22,470 nt of DNA from a virus. The position numbers were made by a program, and so were the translations under genes. Below the pieces are notes generated by a model. It was not told the origin of the DNA. It made no database searches and saw only the letters and a list, made by a program, of their open reading frames with translations. The DNA lies in the IMG/VR virus record IMGVR_UViG_3300042565_000432, positions 1 to 22,470 of that record, one strand, 5' to 3'. Each line of letters starts with the position of its first letter. Positions within the stretch are counted from its first letter, which is position 1. Positions 9,543 to 22,470 of the stretch are shown here, piece after piece.

Positions 9543-9793
9543 TCTATCTCCTTATACTTGGTTAATTGCTTGACTACTTTCTTCTTAATATCTTTTTGGC
9601 CTGTTTTTTTCTTAGGTCTTAAAAATTCAGGCAAAATACAATCAATCGCTTTATAGGCTTTTAGATTAGGTGGATCTTCTCGCCAGCCTGGTGACTTTAA
9701 TTCCACTTGACCTTTATCATTTTTGTATTTAACTTTATATTCATACTTACCGAAAGCTTTAGCCATGGATTGCATCCACTCTTTAGCTTCCAT
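9539..9793 (-). CDS. Hypothetical basic protein, 84 aa
   Basis: An 84-residue Lys-rich protein (MEAKEWMQSMAKAFGKYEYK at the start, a KKKTGQKDIKKKVVKQLTKY helix at the end). Tyrosine/lysine alternation early on suggests a strand pair, and PPNLKAYKAIDCILPEF is a helix. I do not recognise the family. Stop/start overlaps on both sides make it the second gene of the leftward operon. Positive charge suggests nucleic-acid binding. Confidence 0.65.
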   Translation of the reverse strand: MEAKEWMQSMAKAFGKYEYKVKYKNDKGQVELKSPGWREDPPNLKAYKAIDCILPEFLRPKKKTGQKDIKKKVVKQLTKYKEIE

Positions 9794-9956
9794 CTTTAAA
9801 TACTTTCTCTACATTACCAGTAGAGGGATGGAGTTCGTATTCATATTCTTTAATTGTCTCAACAGAAGATGGTTTCTTCTTGCCAAAGATACGATCGAAG
9901 TTGGCATCAAAGATTTCTTTGTCTGTAAATGGTCTGGGTGTTGATCCTTTGCTCAT
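9783..9956 (-). CDS. First gene of leftward operon, 57 aa
   Basis: A 57-residue protein starting MSKGSTPRPFTDKEIFDANF and including DRIFGKKKPSS, then an acidic EYEYELHPSTG segment. Small proteins with an N-terminal SKGSxPRPF and FDxxFDxIFGKK recur as first genes in phage operons, by my recollection; their role is unknown. I start it at the ATG at 9956; an upstream in-frame ATG at 9986 lies inside the promoter. The ATG begins only 7 nt after the -10 box, so the message may be leaderless. Confidence 0.72.
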   Translation of the reverse strand: MSKGSTPRPFTDKEIFDANFDRIFGKKKPSSVETIKEYEYELHPSTGNVEKVFKDGS

Positions 9957-9962
9957 ATGCTC

Positions 9963-9991
9963 AATATATATCTTATAGATATACAAGTCAA
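9963..9991 (-). promoter_or_regulatory. Sigma70-type promoter of leftward operon
   Basis: On the minus strand TTGACT (9991-9986) is followed after exactly 17 nt by TATATT (9968-9963). Spacing is optimal and the hexamers match consensus at five of six and five of six positions. It points into the 9956 gene and the whole leftward arm. Confidence 0.82.
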
Positions 9992-10003
9992 TAGTATGTT
10001 TGC

Positions 10004-10032
10004 TTGACTTAAAAATAAATATGGCTTATATT
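10004..10032 (+). promoter_or_regulatory. Sigma70-type promoter firing rightward into non-coding DNA
   Basis: TTGACT (10004-10009), 17 nt, TATATT (10027-10032). The hexamers and spacing are identical to the leftward promoter, whose -35 box lies 12 bp away in opposite orientation. The predicted start is A10039. No protein gene follows for over 1 kb on this strand. Confidence 0.78.
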
Positions 10033-10038
10033 ACTCAT

Positions 10039-10264
10039 ACGGGGCCATTACCCAGCCCTCCTAAATGTAGTAGCTGACAGATAGGGATAAACGTGTTTAA
10101 TCGGTGGATTCTTCTTACAAGTTGCTCTCGGATGAGATCAAGTAACAGTATCGGGGATCAGACCACTGGGGATGTGAAGTAGTGCATTACATCCAAACTA
10201 GATAAACGAGAAGCTACAATCCATCTGGATTAGTAAGATAATTTAAACAATACTGTTTATTATC
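10039..10264 (+). ncRNA. Candidate structured non-coding RNA
   Basis: The region after the rightward promoter has no ORF with a ribosome-binding site but can form several stems. There is a 5' hairpin GGGGC 10041-10045 with GCCCT 10055-10059. There is a hairpin at 10121-10146 (GTTGC/GTAAC plus TCTC/GAGA with a GGAT loop and a 4-nt bulge). GGATGT 10170-10175 pairs with ACATCC 10189-10194. A bulged 11-bp hairpin spans 10237-10264 with an ATAC loop. Two further long-range pairings are possible (10070-10075 with 10212-10217, and 10103-10110 with 10218-10225) and would cross as a pseudoknot. No poly-T tract follows, so the 3' end is uncertain. I do not recognise the RNA family. Confidence 0.5.
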
Positions 10265-12836: not shown

Positions 12837-13520
12837 ATGAAATTTATAGCTTATTATCGCGTTTCAACTGATAAGCAAGGCCAAAGCGGGCTAGGTTTGG
12901 AAGCTCAAAGAACTATATGTTACGCCTACGCTCGCAGCATCAACGCTGAAATCATCTCAGAATATACCGACATCGAGAGCGGCTCTCACAATGATCGACC
13001 CGAGCTGCTCAAGGCGTTGGCATTATTGGAAATTGAGAATGGTTCTCGTTTACTTGTGGCCAAACAATGTAGGCTCACGCGATCGGTTGCATTGATGTCA
13101 TCGCTACTGGAAAAGAAGGTGCCGCTTACCATAGCGGAAACGCCCGAAGCAAGTATTTTTGAGTTACATATCAGAGCTGTATTAAATGAGGAAACAAGGC
13201 GCCAAATCTCTATCAATACGCGCAATGCGTTAATGGCCGCCAAAGCAAGAGGCGTTAAACTTGGCGCACCTAGAGAGATGATGAGAGTCATCGCTGTCAA
13301 AGGCGGTCAAGCACAAGCCAAAGTTAAGATAGCCTACGCATTAAAAATCAAACCTATGTTTGACTTGGCCATGGAAAATTGTGGCCGAGCATCATGTCGC
13401 AACATCGCAAAGAAGCTCAATGAACTAGGCGTTAAAACGTACTCAGGAAGCACGTGGACAGCGCCTAACGTATCTTATTATCTAAACAATATCAAAGACA
13501 AGGAAAACATAAAATGGTAG
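12837..13520 (+). CDS. Serine recombinase (resolvase family)
   Basis: A 227-residue site-specific DNA recombinase. The N-terminal catalytic domain has YYRVSTDKQ with Arg8 and the nucleophile Ser10, then SGLGLEAQR and ESGSHNDRPEL. The KxDRLSR motif that holds further active-site arginines reads VAKQCRLTRS at 74-83: Arg79 and Arg82 are kept, but the usual Asp is Cys78. A long linker helix (NTRNALMAAKARGVKLGAPR) leads to a short C-terminal recombinase-like DNA-binding region (RNIAKKLNELGVKTYSGSTW). It is small, like transposon resolvases and invertases rather than large integrases. Codons look richer in C than in neighbouring AT-rich genes, which hints at transfer. Its stop overlaps the YqaJ start. 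Confidence 0.9.
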   Translation: MKFIAYYRVSTDKQGQSGLGLEAQRTICYAYARSINAEIISEYTDIESGSHNDRPELLKALALLEIENGSRLLVAKQCRLTRSVALMSSLLEKKVPLTIAETPEASIFELHIRAVLNEETRRQISINTRNALMAAKARGVKLGAPREMMRVIAVKGGQAQAKVKIAYALKIKPMFDLAMENCGRASCRNIAKKLNELGVKTYSGSTWTAPNVSYYLNNIKDKENIKW

Positions 13521-18153: not shown

Positions 18154-18182
18154 AAGATAGCACAGTTAATTTATTAAATCAA
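18154..18182 (-). promoter_or_regulatory. Promoter candidate for phosphoesterase unit
   Basis: Minus-strand TTGATT (18182-18177), 17 nt, TATCTT (18159-18154), with the start about 20 nt before the ATG. It overlaps the last codon of the lysozyme gene. The -10 box lies in a small inverted repeat TATCT/AGATA. Confidence 0.45.
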
Positions 18183-18631
18183 TAGCCTGACTTAAACATC
18201 TTAGCTTCTGCTTCACGTCTTAGTTGAAGTCCTTTAAGCACACGACCACCAGCACGACAATACTTTAGGAGCGATTCAATAGCCGCTTCTTTATCGCCAC
18301 GAAGCAACGCTTGACGGAGTGTTGATCTTTGAAATGTACCCAAGCCAAGATTGAAGGCAAAAGAAACCAAGCAATCGAATTCACATTGTCTAAGGCGCAC
18401 GTTAGGTAGCATCTTAGATACTCCCAACTCGAAACGATTGAGGTCGGATTTAAGAAGTCCATCTATTTCTTCTTGCGTAAAAGTTCTGTTCCAAGAATCA
18501 GGCAAATGTTTGCCATCGCCGATAAGGTGACCAACACCCACAGTATACAGGTTTGCAGCACAACGATAGGGCCGACTACGCACACCTTCAAAATGTTTAA
18601 TAAGTTCGATACCACGCTTAGATACTTTCAC
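18179..18631 (-). CDS. Endolysin, phage lysozyme (GH24)
   Basis: A 150-residue lysozyme that degrades peptidoglycan at lysis. I start at the GTG at 18631, which gives the usual opening MKVSKRGIELIKHFEGVRSR; a TTG 13 codons earlier lacks a ribosome-binding site and adds no family sequence. The catalytic pattern Glu-8aa-Cys-5aa-Thr is present (Glu15, Cys24, Thr30). This is the Cys variant of the usual Glu/Asp/Thr triad. FDCLVSFAFNLGLGTFQRST and GLQLRREAE are typical C-terminal motifs. No signal or SAR helix is seen, so it relies on the holin just upstream, whose gene it overlaps by 14 nt. Confidence 0.92.
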   Translation of the reverse strand: MKVSKRGIELIKHFEGVRSRPYRCAANLYTVGVGHLIGDGKHLPDSWNRTFTQEEIDGLLKSDLNRFELGVSKMLPNVRLRQCEFDCLVSFAFNLGLGTFQRSTLRQALLRGDKEAAIESLLKYCRAGGRVLKGLQLRREAEAKMFKSGY

Positions 18632-19118
18632 GTTTCTTTTCCCATGTGCGAGAGCCAAAGTAGAATCCAATGATAGAAGCTACAATGCTCATCTCATCGC
18701 TAGAGAATATAGCATCCATAGATTCTGGTGTGAATCCACCAGTAGATTTAACTGCCCATATGAATCCAGCTACATCAACGAATACAAGTAAGCCTACAAA
18801 AGTAAATGCAACGAATGGTCTGACACAAGCATTGAGAGTCTTGACCCATTGTGATGCACCTTCTACAAGTTTGGTGTCATGTGCATATAATGCTTCACGT
18901 TCTTGAGCGTACGTTTCTGCGTACGTTCCTTCTAATTCAATAGCAGCAATCTTCTCTTGAGATACAAAACCTTTCTCTGCCATACGCATAGCTTGTTCGT
19001 TCTGTAATTTAGCCATCTCACGTTCATGTGCTTGGTCACCTTTTTGCTGAAAAAATCCGAGCAGACTTGGTAGCCCACTGGTAGCAAAGCCTAAGATACC
19101 ACTGATAATACTAAACAT
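18618..19118 (-). CDS. Holin of the 3TM type
   Basis: A 166-residue protein that permeabilises the inner membrane to release the lysozyme. It has an N-terminal hydrophobic segment (FSIISGILGFATSGLPSLLG), a long charged helix (about 25-90), then two transmembrane helices (FVAFTFVGLLVFVDVAGFIW and SIVASIIGFYFGSR) ending in the basic WEKKRESI. This is the layout of the phage/GTA 3TM holin family. GAGGAG precedes the ATG, which directly follows the stop of the SprT-like gene. Confidence 0.88.
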   Translation of the reverse strand: MFSIISGILGFATSGLPSLLGFFQQKGDQAHEREMAKLQNEQAMRMAEKGFVSQEKIAAIELEGTYAETYAQEREALYAHDTKLVEGASQWVKTLNACVRPFVAFTFVGLLVFVDVAGFIWAVKSTGGFTPESMDAIFSSDEMSIVASIIGFYFGSRTWEKKRESI

Positions 19119-19460
19119 TTAAAACTCCTCTTTGTTAAATCCGTATAGGTCACAGATGATATTAACATATTTGTTAAACTTCTTTTCGTGTGCATCAAAG
19201 TCATTGTGTCCATGATACCAAAGCATACAATGGATCATCTCATGCATAAGTGTTTCAGATATCTTCAAGTATGTATCATTAGAGATATCTATTTGTATTC
19301 TAGTAGGCTCTGTAAGAAAGTATCCAAGCACCTCACCTTTAGTATTGATGATACTAAAATTAACCTTGTGCGGTGCTGGCATCTTGTAGCCATTGAACGG
19401 AGGTAGCCCAACAAAACAAGCATACATCTTACGCAAGTTTTGTTTGGTTAATAGCTTCAT
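19119..19460 (-). CDS. SprT-like zinc metalloprotease domain protein
   Basis: A 113-residue protein with HEMIH (His73, Glu74, His77), the zinc-metalloprotease signature, followed by CMLWYHGHNDFDAH, where His91 could be the third ligand, and EKKF as in SprT-like domains. The N-terminus (LRKMYACFVGLPPF) and the strand before the motif (TRIQIDISNDTY) also fit. SprT domains are known from DNA-protein crosslink repair and are found in many phages without a defined role. The start overlaps the upstream stop (TAATG). Confidence 0.8.
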   Translation of the reverse strand: MKLLTKQNLRKMYACFVGLPPFNGYKMPAPHKVNFSIINTKGEVLGYFLTEPTRIQIDISNDTYLKISETLMHEMIHCMLWYHGHNDFDAHEKKFNKYVNIICDLYGFNKEEF

Positions 19461-19861
19461 TACTTGGCCAATGGATTGATCGTTGATTTGCGTAATGCTT
19501 TCATCTCCTCACGCACTGCGCTAAGAGATACATCAATCTCTCTTTGTGATCCTTTAATGATGGCTGCTGTTTCTTTAGATGTAGCAAAAGCTTCTGATGC
19601 TTTCTCATACGCTCTGTTGTTAGACATAGCTAATTCAATCATACGATTGTCAGCAGCTTTAACTCTATCTTCTACTAATGTAATGCGTGTTTCAACATTA
19701 CTCATTTTCTTTACTTCTTCAATTGTCGAAGTCAAATCGTTGAATAGGGTTATCCCGTAGTAGACTGCTCCACTGGTAGGAACTAGCACTGATAAGATTA
19801 TCCCCAAGATCATCTGCGAGGATAAGTTTAAGGTATACTTCTTGTTCTCTTGCGTAGTCAT
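19460..19861 (-). CDS. Membrane-anchored coiled-coil protein (spanin-like)
   Basis: A 133-residue protein with one N-terminal transmembrane helix (MILGIILSVLVPTSGAVYYG, about 17-36) followed by about 90 residues of charged heptad-like sequence (ETRITLVEDRVKAADNRMIE), predicted periplasmic coiled coil. This is the layout of an inner-membrane spanin, which would fuse the membranes at lysis, and it lies beside the holin and lysozyme. No lipoprotein partner is seen embedded in it, so this stays an inference. Its first 143 nt lie within the preceding gene in another frame, with GGAG 7 nt before the ATG. Confidence 0.68.
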   Translation of the reverse strand: MTTQENKKYTLNLSSQMILGIILSVLVPTSGAVYYGITLFNDLTSTIEEVKKMSNVETRITLVEDRVKAADNRMIELAMSNNRAYEKASEAFATSKETAAIIKGSQREIDVSLSAVREEMKALRKSTINPLAK

Positions 19862-20747
19862 TCTCTTGCTCCATGTTGATTGCTTCTATGATCTGTTGGT
19901 TCTGTATCGTGTATGCTTGAGTCAATAGTTGCATGCTCATAACAATCCCAAACCCAGGCACGAGTTCCTTTGATTTCGGAAGCTCTTGTTTTGGGTCTAG
20001 CTTCGCTTCTGTATTTGCGGTTGTTCTCGATGCGGGCTGTGATTCTTGTCTGCTTTCTGTCTTGACTTCCGTCTTGGTTTCTTGACGCACCGAAGTAGTC
20101 ACCTCTGGCATCTGAGTCTGCGCAAAATCCATTGGCACAATTACAGGTTCTATTGGTATGACTGGTGCATTGATGGGATTCAATGGACTTGTCACACTGA
20201 GTGGACTTGTCGGACTGATTGGATTCGTTGGATTGTCCATCGACTTGACACAACTGTTGGTAACTTGAATCCAAGAACCAAACGCTGGAGTCGAGTATGG
20301 ATCTGAGCATGTCGAAGTTCTTTGCTCTAGTATTGATCCAGTGTATCCAGCTTCGCATGCTAGTGTCCTTTGTTCTGTAGCTTCGAAACAAGTTGGCGGA
20401 TCTTGTGTGCAATTATCTGACGTAGTTGTCCAAGAAGTCCAAGTACTTGAGCTACAAGCATAGGAACGACTCTGATTAACCACTCCACTATAGTGCGGTA
20501 GAGGGCAACTAAGCGATTGATACTCCACTGTATCGGTGCAGACTGGCTGAATGTATGGAGCGCAGATAGGATCATCTGGCCTATACGGACACCATGCTGT
20601 AGCAAGCGCTGTAGCATCGTCAATGCCATGGCACTGTAAGTTACTAACCCAGCCTTGAGCTGTTGGAACATATGTGCAATACCATGCATAGAGTGGGTTA
20701 CTCCACAGGAGTATTAGGAATAAGAGGGAGCGTATAGGTAGGACCAT
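19719..20747 (-). CDS. Secreted Cys-rich protein with thrombospondin-like repeats
   Basis: A 342-residue exported protein. I start at the MVLPIRSLLF methionine because an upstream start would only add residues inside the previous gene. A signal peptide (about 1-21) ends SNPLYA before WYC. Residues about 22-170 hold many Cys and repeated TSP1-like blocks (TWTSWTTTSDNC; GSWIQVTNSC) with EQRTLACEAGY and QRTSTCSDPY motifs. A Pro/Asn/Ser linker (about 175-215) and a Glu/Thr/Lys-rich region follow, then a C-terminal helical part with no hydrophobic anchor. Similar modules occur in surface and conjugation-linked proteins. It could coat or modify the envelope. Its 3' end overlaps the next gene by 143 nt. 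Confidence 0.7.
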   Translation of the reverse strand: MVLPIRSLLFLILLWSNPLYAWYCTYVPTAQGWVSNLQCHGIDDATALATAWCPYRPDDPICAPYIQPVCTDTVEYQSLSCPLPHYSGVVNQSRSYACSSSTWTSWTTTSDNCTQDPPTCFEATEQRTLACEAGYTGSILEQRTSTCSDPYSTPAFGSWIQVTNSCVKSMDNPTNPISPTSPLSVTSPLNPINAPVIPIEPVIVPMDFAQTQMPEVTTSVRQETKTEVKTESRQESQPASRTTANTEAKLDPKQELPKSKELVPGFGIVMSMQLLTQAYTIQNQQIIEAINMEQENDYAREQEVYLKLILADDLGDNLISASSYQWSSLLRDNPIQRFDFDN

Positions 20748-21264
20748 ATAGTTTCTCAAATCGTTTTGGATCTCTCTCATGCCATGCACGTTTAGCTGTG
20801 TAACCTAGTGAGCCACCAATAGGGCAAGGTGAGCCAGACATTTCCATAGCTTCCCAAACACGATTGTCTTGACACAATACTGATACTGCTGCTACCTTTA
20901 AACCTAAGTCGTTAAGTGTCTTAGCTAGTTTAATACGCTCACAGTTTTCATCTGTGATAGTAGCACCACCACTGATAGAGAACATGCCTGTGTTAGCACC
21001 ACCAGATACACCAGACTTACACATGTCATTAGAGAAACCAGACATGGATGGGGCCATAGCACTAGGCACTGGCATCCCTTTGTTGTTGATCGTTGTTGTA
21101 TCAGCATGAGCATAACTTTGACTAAGCAAGAATACAATAACGAAGCCAGCTGTAGCAAGAAGGATCTGCTCTAAGCGTTTAAGTCTAGCATTGATTTGCT
21201 CATAACGAATAGCACATACTTCCTCGTGTGTGCTTAGCCTTGATTCTACGTCATGTTTAACCAT
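20698..21264 (-). CDS. Inner-membrane protein with periplasmic domain
   Basis: A 188-residue protein. The ATG at 21264, with AGAGGAA upstream and lying at the end of the endonuclease gene (TAACATG), is preferred to an earlier in-frame start. It has a short charged helix (RYEQINARLKRLEQ), a transmembrane segment (ILLATAGFVIVFLLSQSYAH, about 34-53) that may be cleaved after AHA, a Gly/Ser-rich stretch and a conserved-looking domain (GLKVAAVSVLCQDNRVWEAM). Related uncharacterised proteins occur in phages of Burkholderia-group hosts, by my recollection. No function can be given. Confidence 0.65.
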   Translation of the reverse strand: MVKHDVESRLSTHEEVCAIRYEQINARLKRLEQILLATAGFVIVFLLSQSYAHADTTTINNKGMPVPSAMAPSMSGFSNDMCKSGVSGGANTGMFSISGGATITDENCERIKLAKTLNDLGLKVAAVSVLCQDNRVWEAMEMSGSPCPIGGSLGYTAKRAWHERDPKRFEKLYGPTYTLPLIPNTPVE

Positions 21265-21265
21265 G

Positions 21266-21889
21266 TTATTCCTCTGCTGGTTCTGGTGTATTGCCTTCTT
21301 CAAAGGCTCTATCTAAAGACCATTTGTATCTAACAATTCTACTTCTTAGTTTGTCATAATTCATATTTAGTTCCTTTGACCATTGTGCTATTGTTTGTTT
21401 TTTACCTTGCCATTCTACAAAAACATTAGCTCTTGTATTATTAGCTTGTTGTTCTCTTGTAGCCCAACGACAATTAGATTTCTCATAATTGCCATTAACA
21501 TCTATTCTATCTAAACTCATTCCTTCTGTAGCTTCACCCATATCAAGATAAAAGTTTTCAAAACTATCCCATCTTTTATCATAAGTAATTCCACGAGAAG
21601 AATAGTCTTGATTTATCCTATTACATCTATTCCTCATGGCTCCCCACATAGCATAAGTCTTTGTGTTTGTTTTGCCATGAGTAGTATTAGCCTTAGCTAT
21701 TCGTTCTTTATGTTCACATCCACAAGAGTTAATCTTACCTTGCACCATATCAGATGCTTTAATCTCTTTTTGTTTGCCACATTTACACTGGCAAATCCAC
21801 CAAGCACCATTACCTTTTGATCTTCCTAATTTCAGTATGGTTAAACTACCAAACTGAAATCCAGTTAAATCACTTAGAGGTTTGCCCAC
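21266..21889 (-). CDS. HNH-type homing endonuclease-like protein
   Basis: A 207-residue protein with the common N-terminus PLSDLTGFQFGSLTILKLGR, a Cys cluster (CQCKCGKQ, then SCGC), a central TYAMWGAMRNRCNR and the HNH-type core LDRIDVNGNYEKSNCRWATR, followed by a DNA-binding helical tail (TIAQWSKELNMNYDKLRSRI). Free-standing phage endonucleases of this type cut DNA at defined sites and spread between genomes. I start at the GTG at 21889 (AGGAAG 7 nt upstream), which matches the usual family N-terminus; an upstream ATG lies deeper inside the previous gene. It is inserted between tail and lysis-side genes. Confidence 0.8.
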   Translation of the reverse strand: MGKPLSDLTGFQFGSLTILKLGRSKGNGAWWICQCKCGKQKEIKASDMVQGKINSCGCEHKERIAKANTTHGKTNTKTYAMWGAMRNRCNRINQDYSSRGITYDKRWDSFENFYLDMGEATEGMSLDRIDVNGNYEKSNCRWATREQQANNTRANVFVEWQGKKQTIAQWSKELNMNYDKLRSRIVRYKWSLDRAFEEGNTPEPAEE

Positions 21890-22052
21890 TAGGCACTTCC
21901 TCGTCTGGACCATAAACCTTACCACCTTCTTCTTTATACTTTAAGTAGGCTTGGTAGTCTGTGTTAGCTGGGTCAAATGGGATAAAAGCTCCATCTTCTC
22001 TTTGAACCATATAAGGCTTGTTTGATACACTATGAATAATTAATTTATACAT
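21870..22052 (-). CDS. Small tail-associated hypothetical protein, 60 aa
   Basis: A 60-residue protein, MYKLIIHSVSNKPYMVQRED at the start, then GAFIPFDPANTDYQAYLKYK and an acidic end. The PFDPANxDYQAYLxWxxxG pattern is common in small phage proteins next to tail fibres, by my recollection. GGAG lies 10 nt before the ATG, 2 nt after the tail-fibre stop. Possibly a tail-fibre assembly partner, but not shown. Confidence 0.65.
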   Translation of the reverse strand: MYKLIIHSVSNKPYMVQREDGAFIPFDPANTDYQAYLKYKEEGGKVYGPDEEVPSGQTSK

Positions 22053-22054
22053 GA

Positions 22055-22470
22055 TTATAACTCCGCAGAAGCTGAATAGCCAAAAATAATTCCATAGCCA
22101 CCAGTCGATACATTACCACCACTTTTATTAATAACAGTAAAGCCGTATGTTAAAGTATCACCAATAGAACCGCTACTAGCCGCCAAGTCTGTACCAGTCC
22201 ACCCATTACCTGCCATGCTTGTTGTGCTTGTTGAATAACTATAAATAGTTACTGTTGATAATACTCTTTTTTGAACTCTAAAAAAGAATGGACCCATAAT
22301 TTGTTGTGCTGCGTTTACACCGCCACCAATAGTATTTGTGCCTGAAGGTAAAAACGCATAAGAATTTGGTGTATTTGTTGGAATAGCTTGCGGTGAGTTT
22401 CCTTGATTATAAGATGTTTCAAAATACCTCTGACAATTAGCCAATTCCTGATTATAAAGTCTGCGTTCAA
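22055..22470 (-). CDS. Tail fibre C-terminal part (runs off the window)
   Basis: The frame is open to the right edge, giving 138 residues without a natural start here. Upstream codons read ERRLYNQELANCQRYFETSY, the typical hinge before the receptor-binding or beta-rich tip of phage tail-fibre proteins. The rest is Gly/Ser/Thr-rich with strand-forming segments (RVLSTVTIYSYSTS; TYGFTVINKS) and ends GYSASAEL. The true N-terminus lies beyond position 22470. It most likely binds the host surface. Confidence 0.78.
   Translation of the reverse strand, partial: ERRLYNQELANCQRYFETSYNQGNSPQAIPTNTPNSYAFLPSGTNTIGGGVNAAQQIMGPFFFRVQKRVLSTVTIYSYSTSTTSMAGNGWTGTDLAASSGSIGDTLTYGFTVINKSGGNVSTGGYGIIFGYSASAEL

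Follow-up and report, generated by a model that had tools for sequence, protein, structure and literature searches.

Gene B and its setting

The window, that is, the whole stretch of DNA analysed here (22,470 bases, 38.7% G+C), is an entire virus record and looks like a piece of a larger podovirus-like genome; because the record is fragment-like, a search of the virus's own genome cannot be full. Packaging and capsid genes occupy about 9.4 kb down to position 1 in the leftward direction, and a tRNA search of the 22,470-base window found none. The right-hand block opens with the end of a tail-fibre gene (22055-22444; phrog_4492, E 1.7e-8) and carries on its minus strand gene B (19719..20747), the middle member of a set of three: gene A (20698..21264, minus strand) lies ahead of it, its 3' end overlapping the B start, and gene C (19460..19861, minus strand) lies behind it. 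The gene order after C is a SprT-like zinc metallopeptidase-like gene that only some cassettes contain (19119..19460, minus strand, in the window; PF10263, E 2.3e-6), then D, which encodes a holin-like protein (18618..19118, minus strand; PF11351, E 0.0011; phrog_6637, E 5.1e-19; phrog_3427 holin, E 6e-4), then E, which encodes an endolysin of the phage lysozyme type (18179..18670, minus strand; PF00959, E 5.7e-33; phrog_7, E 2.4e-44). A sequence-only reading had placed B in a phage lysis region, and the presence of D and E downstream bears this out. By eye, an HNH-type ORF (21266-21925, minus strand) between the tail-fibre end and A was recognised, probably a homing endonuclease insertion. 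Elsewhere in the window a Resolvase-type serine recombinase (12837-13520, plus strand), also named by eye, adjoins ERF- and YqaJ-like recombination genes.

B encodes a secreted modular protein of 342 aa. The interval 19719-20747 proposed for it stood only as an interval: the coding strand is the minus strand, translation of the plus strand being rich in stops. The frame extends over 19719-20789 and yields 356 aa from a GTG or 342 aa from the ATG at 20747; from this ATG the N-terminus reads MVLPIRSLLFLILLWSNPLYA, followed by WYC. The first 21 residues (20685..20747), ending in NPLYA, form the signal peptide, in which all 33 aligned relatives share Y20 and A21. Behind it lie module 1, an exchangeable tip with four cysteines (residues ~22-68; 20544..20684), and two W..W...C repeats of three strands each, which together hold eight cysteines (residues ~69-168; 20244..20543) and in which W103xxW106...C113 and W159...C166 are preceded by E/R/C motifs. 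A low-complexity Pro/Asn/Ser/Thr stretch that passes into a charged linker (residues ~169-256, ~90 residues; 19980..20243) then leads to a conserved C-terminal segment (VPGFGIVMSMQLL and onwards, then a helix; 19722..19979), all on the minus strand. The signal peptide, the abundant cysteines and the Pro/Asn linker noticed in the sequence-only reading are therefore all features of the protein; the mature form has 12 cysteines (24, 39, 53, 62, 70, 81, 98, 113, 120, 131, 147 and 166), 10 of them invariant among aligned relatives and the remaining two nearly so. An AF2 model of residues 21-171 alone (pLDDT 92.7, pTM 0.48) consists of a beta/alpha module and two similar three-stranded units; the C-terminus is helical in the AF2 model, at low confidence.

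B has 109 relatives encoded in viral contigs; 80 of these relatives were retrieved (42-99% identity), and alignments indicate that the signal peptide, cysteines, linker and C-terminus are all kept in them. Homologues that lack a signal peptide or are virion-internal, which would have spoken against the sequence-only reading, were not encountered, and the aligned homologues retain the signal peptide. Deposited phages contain a single relative, in MW202481 (ctXG6705, Manatee Spring), where it is labelled 'transport protein tonB'; a search of Pfam found no TonB_C at E<=1 in B, and identification as Neisseria TspB or the inovirus adsorption protein was likewise rejected, with no Pfam or NCBIfam match at E<=1. 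Neither the genome collection (prophage hosts) nor a plasmid search yielded relatives of B.

B had been described as carrying thrombospondin-type repeats. The W..W...C repeats are indeed present, as is the Cys/Arg pattern that follows them in Thrombospondin type 1 repeats, and the two resemble each other in being built of small tandem three-stranded units; however, Pfam TSP1 models do not recognise B, and no convincing fold match was obtained. Whole-protein B gave no TSP1 match in Pfam at E<=1, and across 35 B family members the best TSP1-type profile was PF19028 (E 1.5), in 3 of the 35. Foldseek of the B model against the PDB returned nothing under E 0.001, the best VIA-align score was Z 3.5, which is at noise level (pleiotrophin, Z 2.4), and no TSR family was prominent among the fold-search matches listed. 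'Thrombospondin-type' is thus a resemblance only and carries no family assignment. A search of PDB sequences with the B profile found notch EGF only, at E>=1, searches of NCBIfam and PADLOC gave nothing useful, and a search of BFVD gave one clear match, the unnamed protein H6BJ76 (E 3.6e-9, 36% identity).

Two alternative frames of B were evaluated by synonymous-codon shuffling. A nested +1-frame ORF (20360-20689 in the window, and present in many relatives) was not accepted as a gene (p=0.147; 0.008-0.32 in 27 relatives). The +2 frame is open for 184 codons (19858-20412, minus strand) and ends in an ATGA shared with the C start; its opening was reached by 0 of 2000 shuffles in the window and, for most relatives, by none or almost none of 500, and it is absent in L081, L103 and L106. 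This opening could reflect translational coupling or a frameshift product.

The A-B-C module and its relatives

A is a secreted or periplasmic protein of 188 aa whose four cysteines (C82, C108, C131 and C147) are invariant among aligned A relatives. Its only PHROG match is to one family of unknown function (phrog_20531, E 1.9e-13), and its profile found nothing in the PDB. At its start (21150-21264, minus strand) the A of the window has an extra N-terminal coiled-coil/TM segment fused ahead of it, as do some relatives; in MW202640 this segment is a stand-alone 56-aa gene (L088:2989-3159). Scanning with the A profile recovered at least 595 related viral contig stretches, of which 80 were kept and 66, 57 and 49 were used in separate surveys (57 for the module count, 49 for the lysis neighbours), those omitted being mostly truncated where the contig stops or already collected. 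Among 50,697 deposited phage records, 11 carry A at E<=0.001, and its domain occurs at 20 loci of the genome collection, mostly contigs of MAGs. In Hyphomonadaceae contigs (L180:5332-6423, which is CP096134.1, L182 and L184) the A domain is part of a secreted Asn-rich repeat protein with no adjoining B or C, and many marine A proteins (L138-L164) have a TG.C.AG.QYCE start, long Asn/Thr repeats, or both, ahead of the A domain.

C has, by hydropathy and alignment, one N-terminal hydrophobic TM helix and then a coiled coil, with an NPL end (...INPLAK in the window). Its gene and the end of B share 143 nt; among 37 freshwater-type loci the overlap is 143 nt in 16, 137 nt in 7 and between 116 and 173 nt in 32. 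The match of C to the PHROG 'Rz-like spanin' family is weak (E 0.02 for the window; 4e-4 for 1 of 18 marine C proteins), and in the profile databases searched only weak or unrelated models matched B and C. Two roseophage C proteins (L085:5279-5701 and L087:3292-3873), which look like a TM helix and coiled coil with an NPL end, were deposited as 'lysozyme' and 'putative lysozyme', probably misannotations.

Many uncultured bacterial viruses, from freshwater as well as the sea, carry the three genes together. Of the 57 A loci in the module count, 55 have at least 2 kb behind A, and both C and a B-slot ORF are found in 54 of the 55, although many loci are near-identical and the counts are not independent events. 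One locus, L138, has no recognisable C behind A. The C motif lies downstream of A in 33 of 36 loci, upstream in 0 of 36 and on the reverse strand in 0 of 36. In the reverse direction, starting from C and omitting loci already collected or cut, A was ahead of every C that had enough sequence upstream (54 of 54 loci of freshwater type, 56 of 56 of marine type), and control regions gave 0 matches in 43 and 64 loci. The signal-peptide heuristic was passed by 46 of 54 B-slot proteins (the remaining 8 resemble signal peptides by eye), and 48 of 54 have a low-complexity linker. Judged from sequence and gene order, A, B and C form a conserved three-gene module across widely spread virus groups. The place of B in this module had been missed in the sequence-only reading; none of the three proteins has a name in the databases searched, and our literature searches listed no paper recognisable as a description of the module.

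The Pelagibacter phages HTVC023P, HTVC115P, HTVC202P and Baldr and the roseophages CRP-810 and CRP-207 have A, an unrelated B-slot protein and a C ending NPL. Freshwater and marine C proteins are homologous (hhalign prob 98.4, E 5.5e-15), whereas homology of the freshwater and marine B C-termini was rejected (hhalign prob 0.2). The marine B-slot proteins, secreted-looking in most cases, have different heads and acidic linkers, with a weak NIDO (nidogen-like) match (E 0.0019) in L141. Since A and C are homologous and the B-slot proteins differ, A and C form a conserved core and B is an exchangeable adaptor, in a slot that keeps the same overall build (head, linker, C-terminal segment). Near the module the L141 phage contig also has an ORF that matches the TonB C-terminal domain (PF03544, E 1.7e-17, 1 of 120 ORFs), probably at 9647-10243, the ORF being judged by appearance.

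Exchange within B itself is sharpest between L044 and L079, which are 95% identical in the signal peptide, 21% in module 1, 88% in the repeats, 94% in the linker and 97% in the C-terminus; at the DNA level identity falls from ~90% to 32% and returns across ~150-200 bp. Module 1 is also swapped in L040/L079 and L067/L077, and less sharply in L028/L066 and L043/L064. Replacement of the tip as one block of DNA, in loci that are otherwise near-identical, indicates that B probably recognises something variable. Holin gene D is likewise mosaic in some pairs (L040/L044), so mosaicism by itself is no proof of a host-recognition role.

Lysis-gene neighbours and comparison with spanins

Among 120 ORFs of at least 110 aa behind C (45 of the 49 loci given), the region that this count covers, 38 matched muralytic domains (Phage_lysozyme 22, GH19 11, M15 4, GH108 1) and 14 matched GTA_holin_3TM. 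The module and the lysozyme or M15 peptidase gene are far apart in Baldr and HTVC202P, where A-B-C lies directly ahead of the large terminase gene. In T7, gene 18.5, whose annotation is Rz homologue, and gene 18.7 precede gene 19, which encodes the large terminase; the position of A-B-C in these two phages matches that of 18.5/18.7 and supports a spanin-like reading.

A strict lipoprotein scan that recovered both lambda Rz1 and T7 18.7 as positive controls found no candidate in MW202481, Baldr or HTVC202P, all three being complete genomes, and in HTVC023P (40.9 kb scanned) only an antisense candidate. Near A, a small lipoprotein was seen at 5 of 50 loci, that of L117 being doubtful, and at none of the other 45. 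It lies directly behind C in L121 and L128. In addition, both roseophages examined have a small lipoprotein directly ahead of A. The roseophage lipoproteins (L085:3675-3935 and L087:1725-1940) are unannotated, and their C-terminal part is like the A motif around its CQD.

Like the two-component spanins (lambda Rz/Rz1, T7 18.5/18.7), A-B-C combines a protein with an N-terminal membrane helix and coiled coil, C, with a secreted Pro-rich partner whose gene overlaps that of C, in a lysis-cassette or pre-terminase position. C has the N-terminal TM helix and coiled coil of an i-spanin by hydropathy and alignment, its orientation in the membrane being presumed. In contrast to those spanins, A and B have no lipobox (a doubtful LMGC occurs in A of L028 and L099), B is far larger with a disulfide-rich head, there is a third protein, A, and the secreted gene comes first and the membrane gene second. 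The outer-membrane lipoprotein signal of an o-spanin was absent from most of the 50 loci and from the three complete genomes scanned. A unimolecular spanin such as T1 gp11 joins a lipobox and a C-terminal TM helix in one protein; B would likewise work across the periplasm, yet its sequence has neither. Because the lipoprotein feature of both spanin classes is missing, we do not file A-B-C as a spanin, though it may work like one.

Candidate roles of the A-B-C proteins

Among the roles put forward in the sequence-only reading, an outer-membrane lysis factor fits best, given the gene order, the topology of C and the absent lipoprotein spanin. A, B and C are probably a cell-envelope complex; that this complex is a lipoprotein-free, spanin-like trans-envelope device for outer-membrane disruption is our preferred reading, held tentatively. 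From the export signals, membrane helix, gene linkage, A/C homology and module exchange, we infer the following topology, complex, target and action. C would be anchored in the inner membrane, its coiled coil reaching into the periplasm, as in an i-spanin, and the disulfide-bonded head of B would bind an outer-membrane or wall component, its long linker crossing the periplasm. The C-terminal helix of B, together with A, might dock on C, A completing the bridge. Once the endolysin has removed peptidoglycan, the bridge could pull the membranes together and so disrupt the outer membrane. Such a machine would be anchored through a binding head in place of lipid, and host-specific exchange of the tip would match B to differing envelope targets.

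Several observations support this spanin-like reading, namely the module linkage, the lysis-gene neighbours, the B-C overlap and the lack of a strict lipoprotein in the three complete genomes. Others argue against it: a lipid anchor, a defining spanin feature, is missing; the block-swapped tip is more suggestive of a recognition device than of a fusion machine; the module is not always next to the endolysin (Baldr, HTVC202P); and small lipoproteins lie near a few A-B-C loci, while the PHROG 'Rz-like spanin' matches of C are weak. The non-homologous freshwater and marine B C-termini also weaken the case for a shared site on C at which B docks.

Superinfection exclusion or surface adhesion, also among the roles first suggested, fits the exchangeable tip of B. 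In a receptor-blocking role, B would be exposed, late in infection, in or on the outer membrane, where its tip would bind the phage receptor or the tail tip of a rival; A and C would fix it to the envelope, so that debris from the lysate or infected cells stop capturing virions. We consider this less likely than the spanin-like reading but a serious rival to it; its weight comes chiefly from the tip exchange of L044 and L079, helped by the other binding-type heads of marine B-slot proteins such as that of L141, and is offset by the want of a known surface-export route, of a lipid or C-terminal outer-membrane anchor and of any match in PADLOC, a library aimed at anti-phage defence, as well as by the tight linkage to C, holin and endolysin. 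T5 Llp is a small single lipoprotein that is exported and proposed to bind the receptor; A-B-C would share with it an exported phage protein proposed for receptor binding, but comprises three genes and has no lipobox. The idea that A and B are late surface material that clumps cells or debris is less probable still. The long Asn/Thr repeats of marine A, the Asn-rich repeats of the Hyphomonadaceae A relatives and a weak match of the B repeats to SasG/Aap biofilm modules (Z 3.3, 96 residues) agree with it, but the structural matches do not rise above noise, such repeats are missing from freshwater A, and the constant membrane partner C and the holin and endolysin neighbours would be left unexplained. 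Phage-encoded curli have been proposed to clump cells or debris, according to the accessible part of PMC9599517. The curli system (CsgGF) of pelagiphages, as presented in the accessible parts of PMC9004378 and PMC9599517, resembles A-B-C as a case of marine phages with secreted or envelope proteins beyond the standard lysis set, but no CsgG, CsgF or CsgA profile matched A, B or C.

Two further explanations divide the module or move it to the particle. C alone might be an i-spanin with an overlooked lipoprotein partner, A and B having an unrelated role; the topology of C and the lipoproteins behind C in L121 and L128 and ahead of A in two roseophages point this way, but a scan able to catch Rz1 and 18.7 found none at 45 of 50 loci or in the three complete genomes, and we judge this as improbable as aggregation. 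Least likely is that A and B are tail-tip or fibre components that join the virion in or from the envelope: the module does follow tail-fibre genes in several loci (L028; the tail-fibre-like 22055-22444 of the window), yet signal peptides would take A and B out of the cytoplasm, where tailed virions are assembled, and C is a membrane protein.

Phages without a recognisable spanin number 91 of 677 (~13%) in the accessible part of PMC6139136, which asks by what means such phages get through the outer membrane and whether an anchor of another kind could serve. For spanin-less phages, the spanin-like reading of A-B-C would supply a named three-gene candidate for that breach. It is a more doubtful step to suppose that A-B-C represents a third class of outer-membrane disruption, a lipoprotein-free three-protein bridge with an interchangeable head, in many phages of Pelagibacter, Roseobacter and freshwater bacteria that seem to lack a spanin. 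Cultured phages of SAR11, an abundant group of bacteria, carry A, and whichever function holds, previously unannotated genes join one envelope system.
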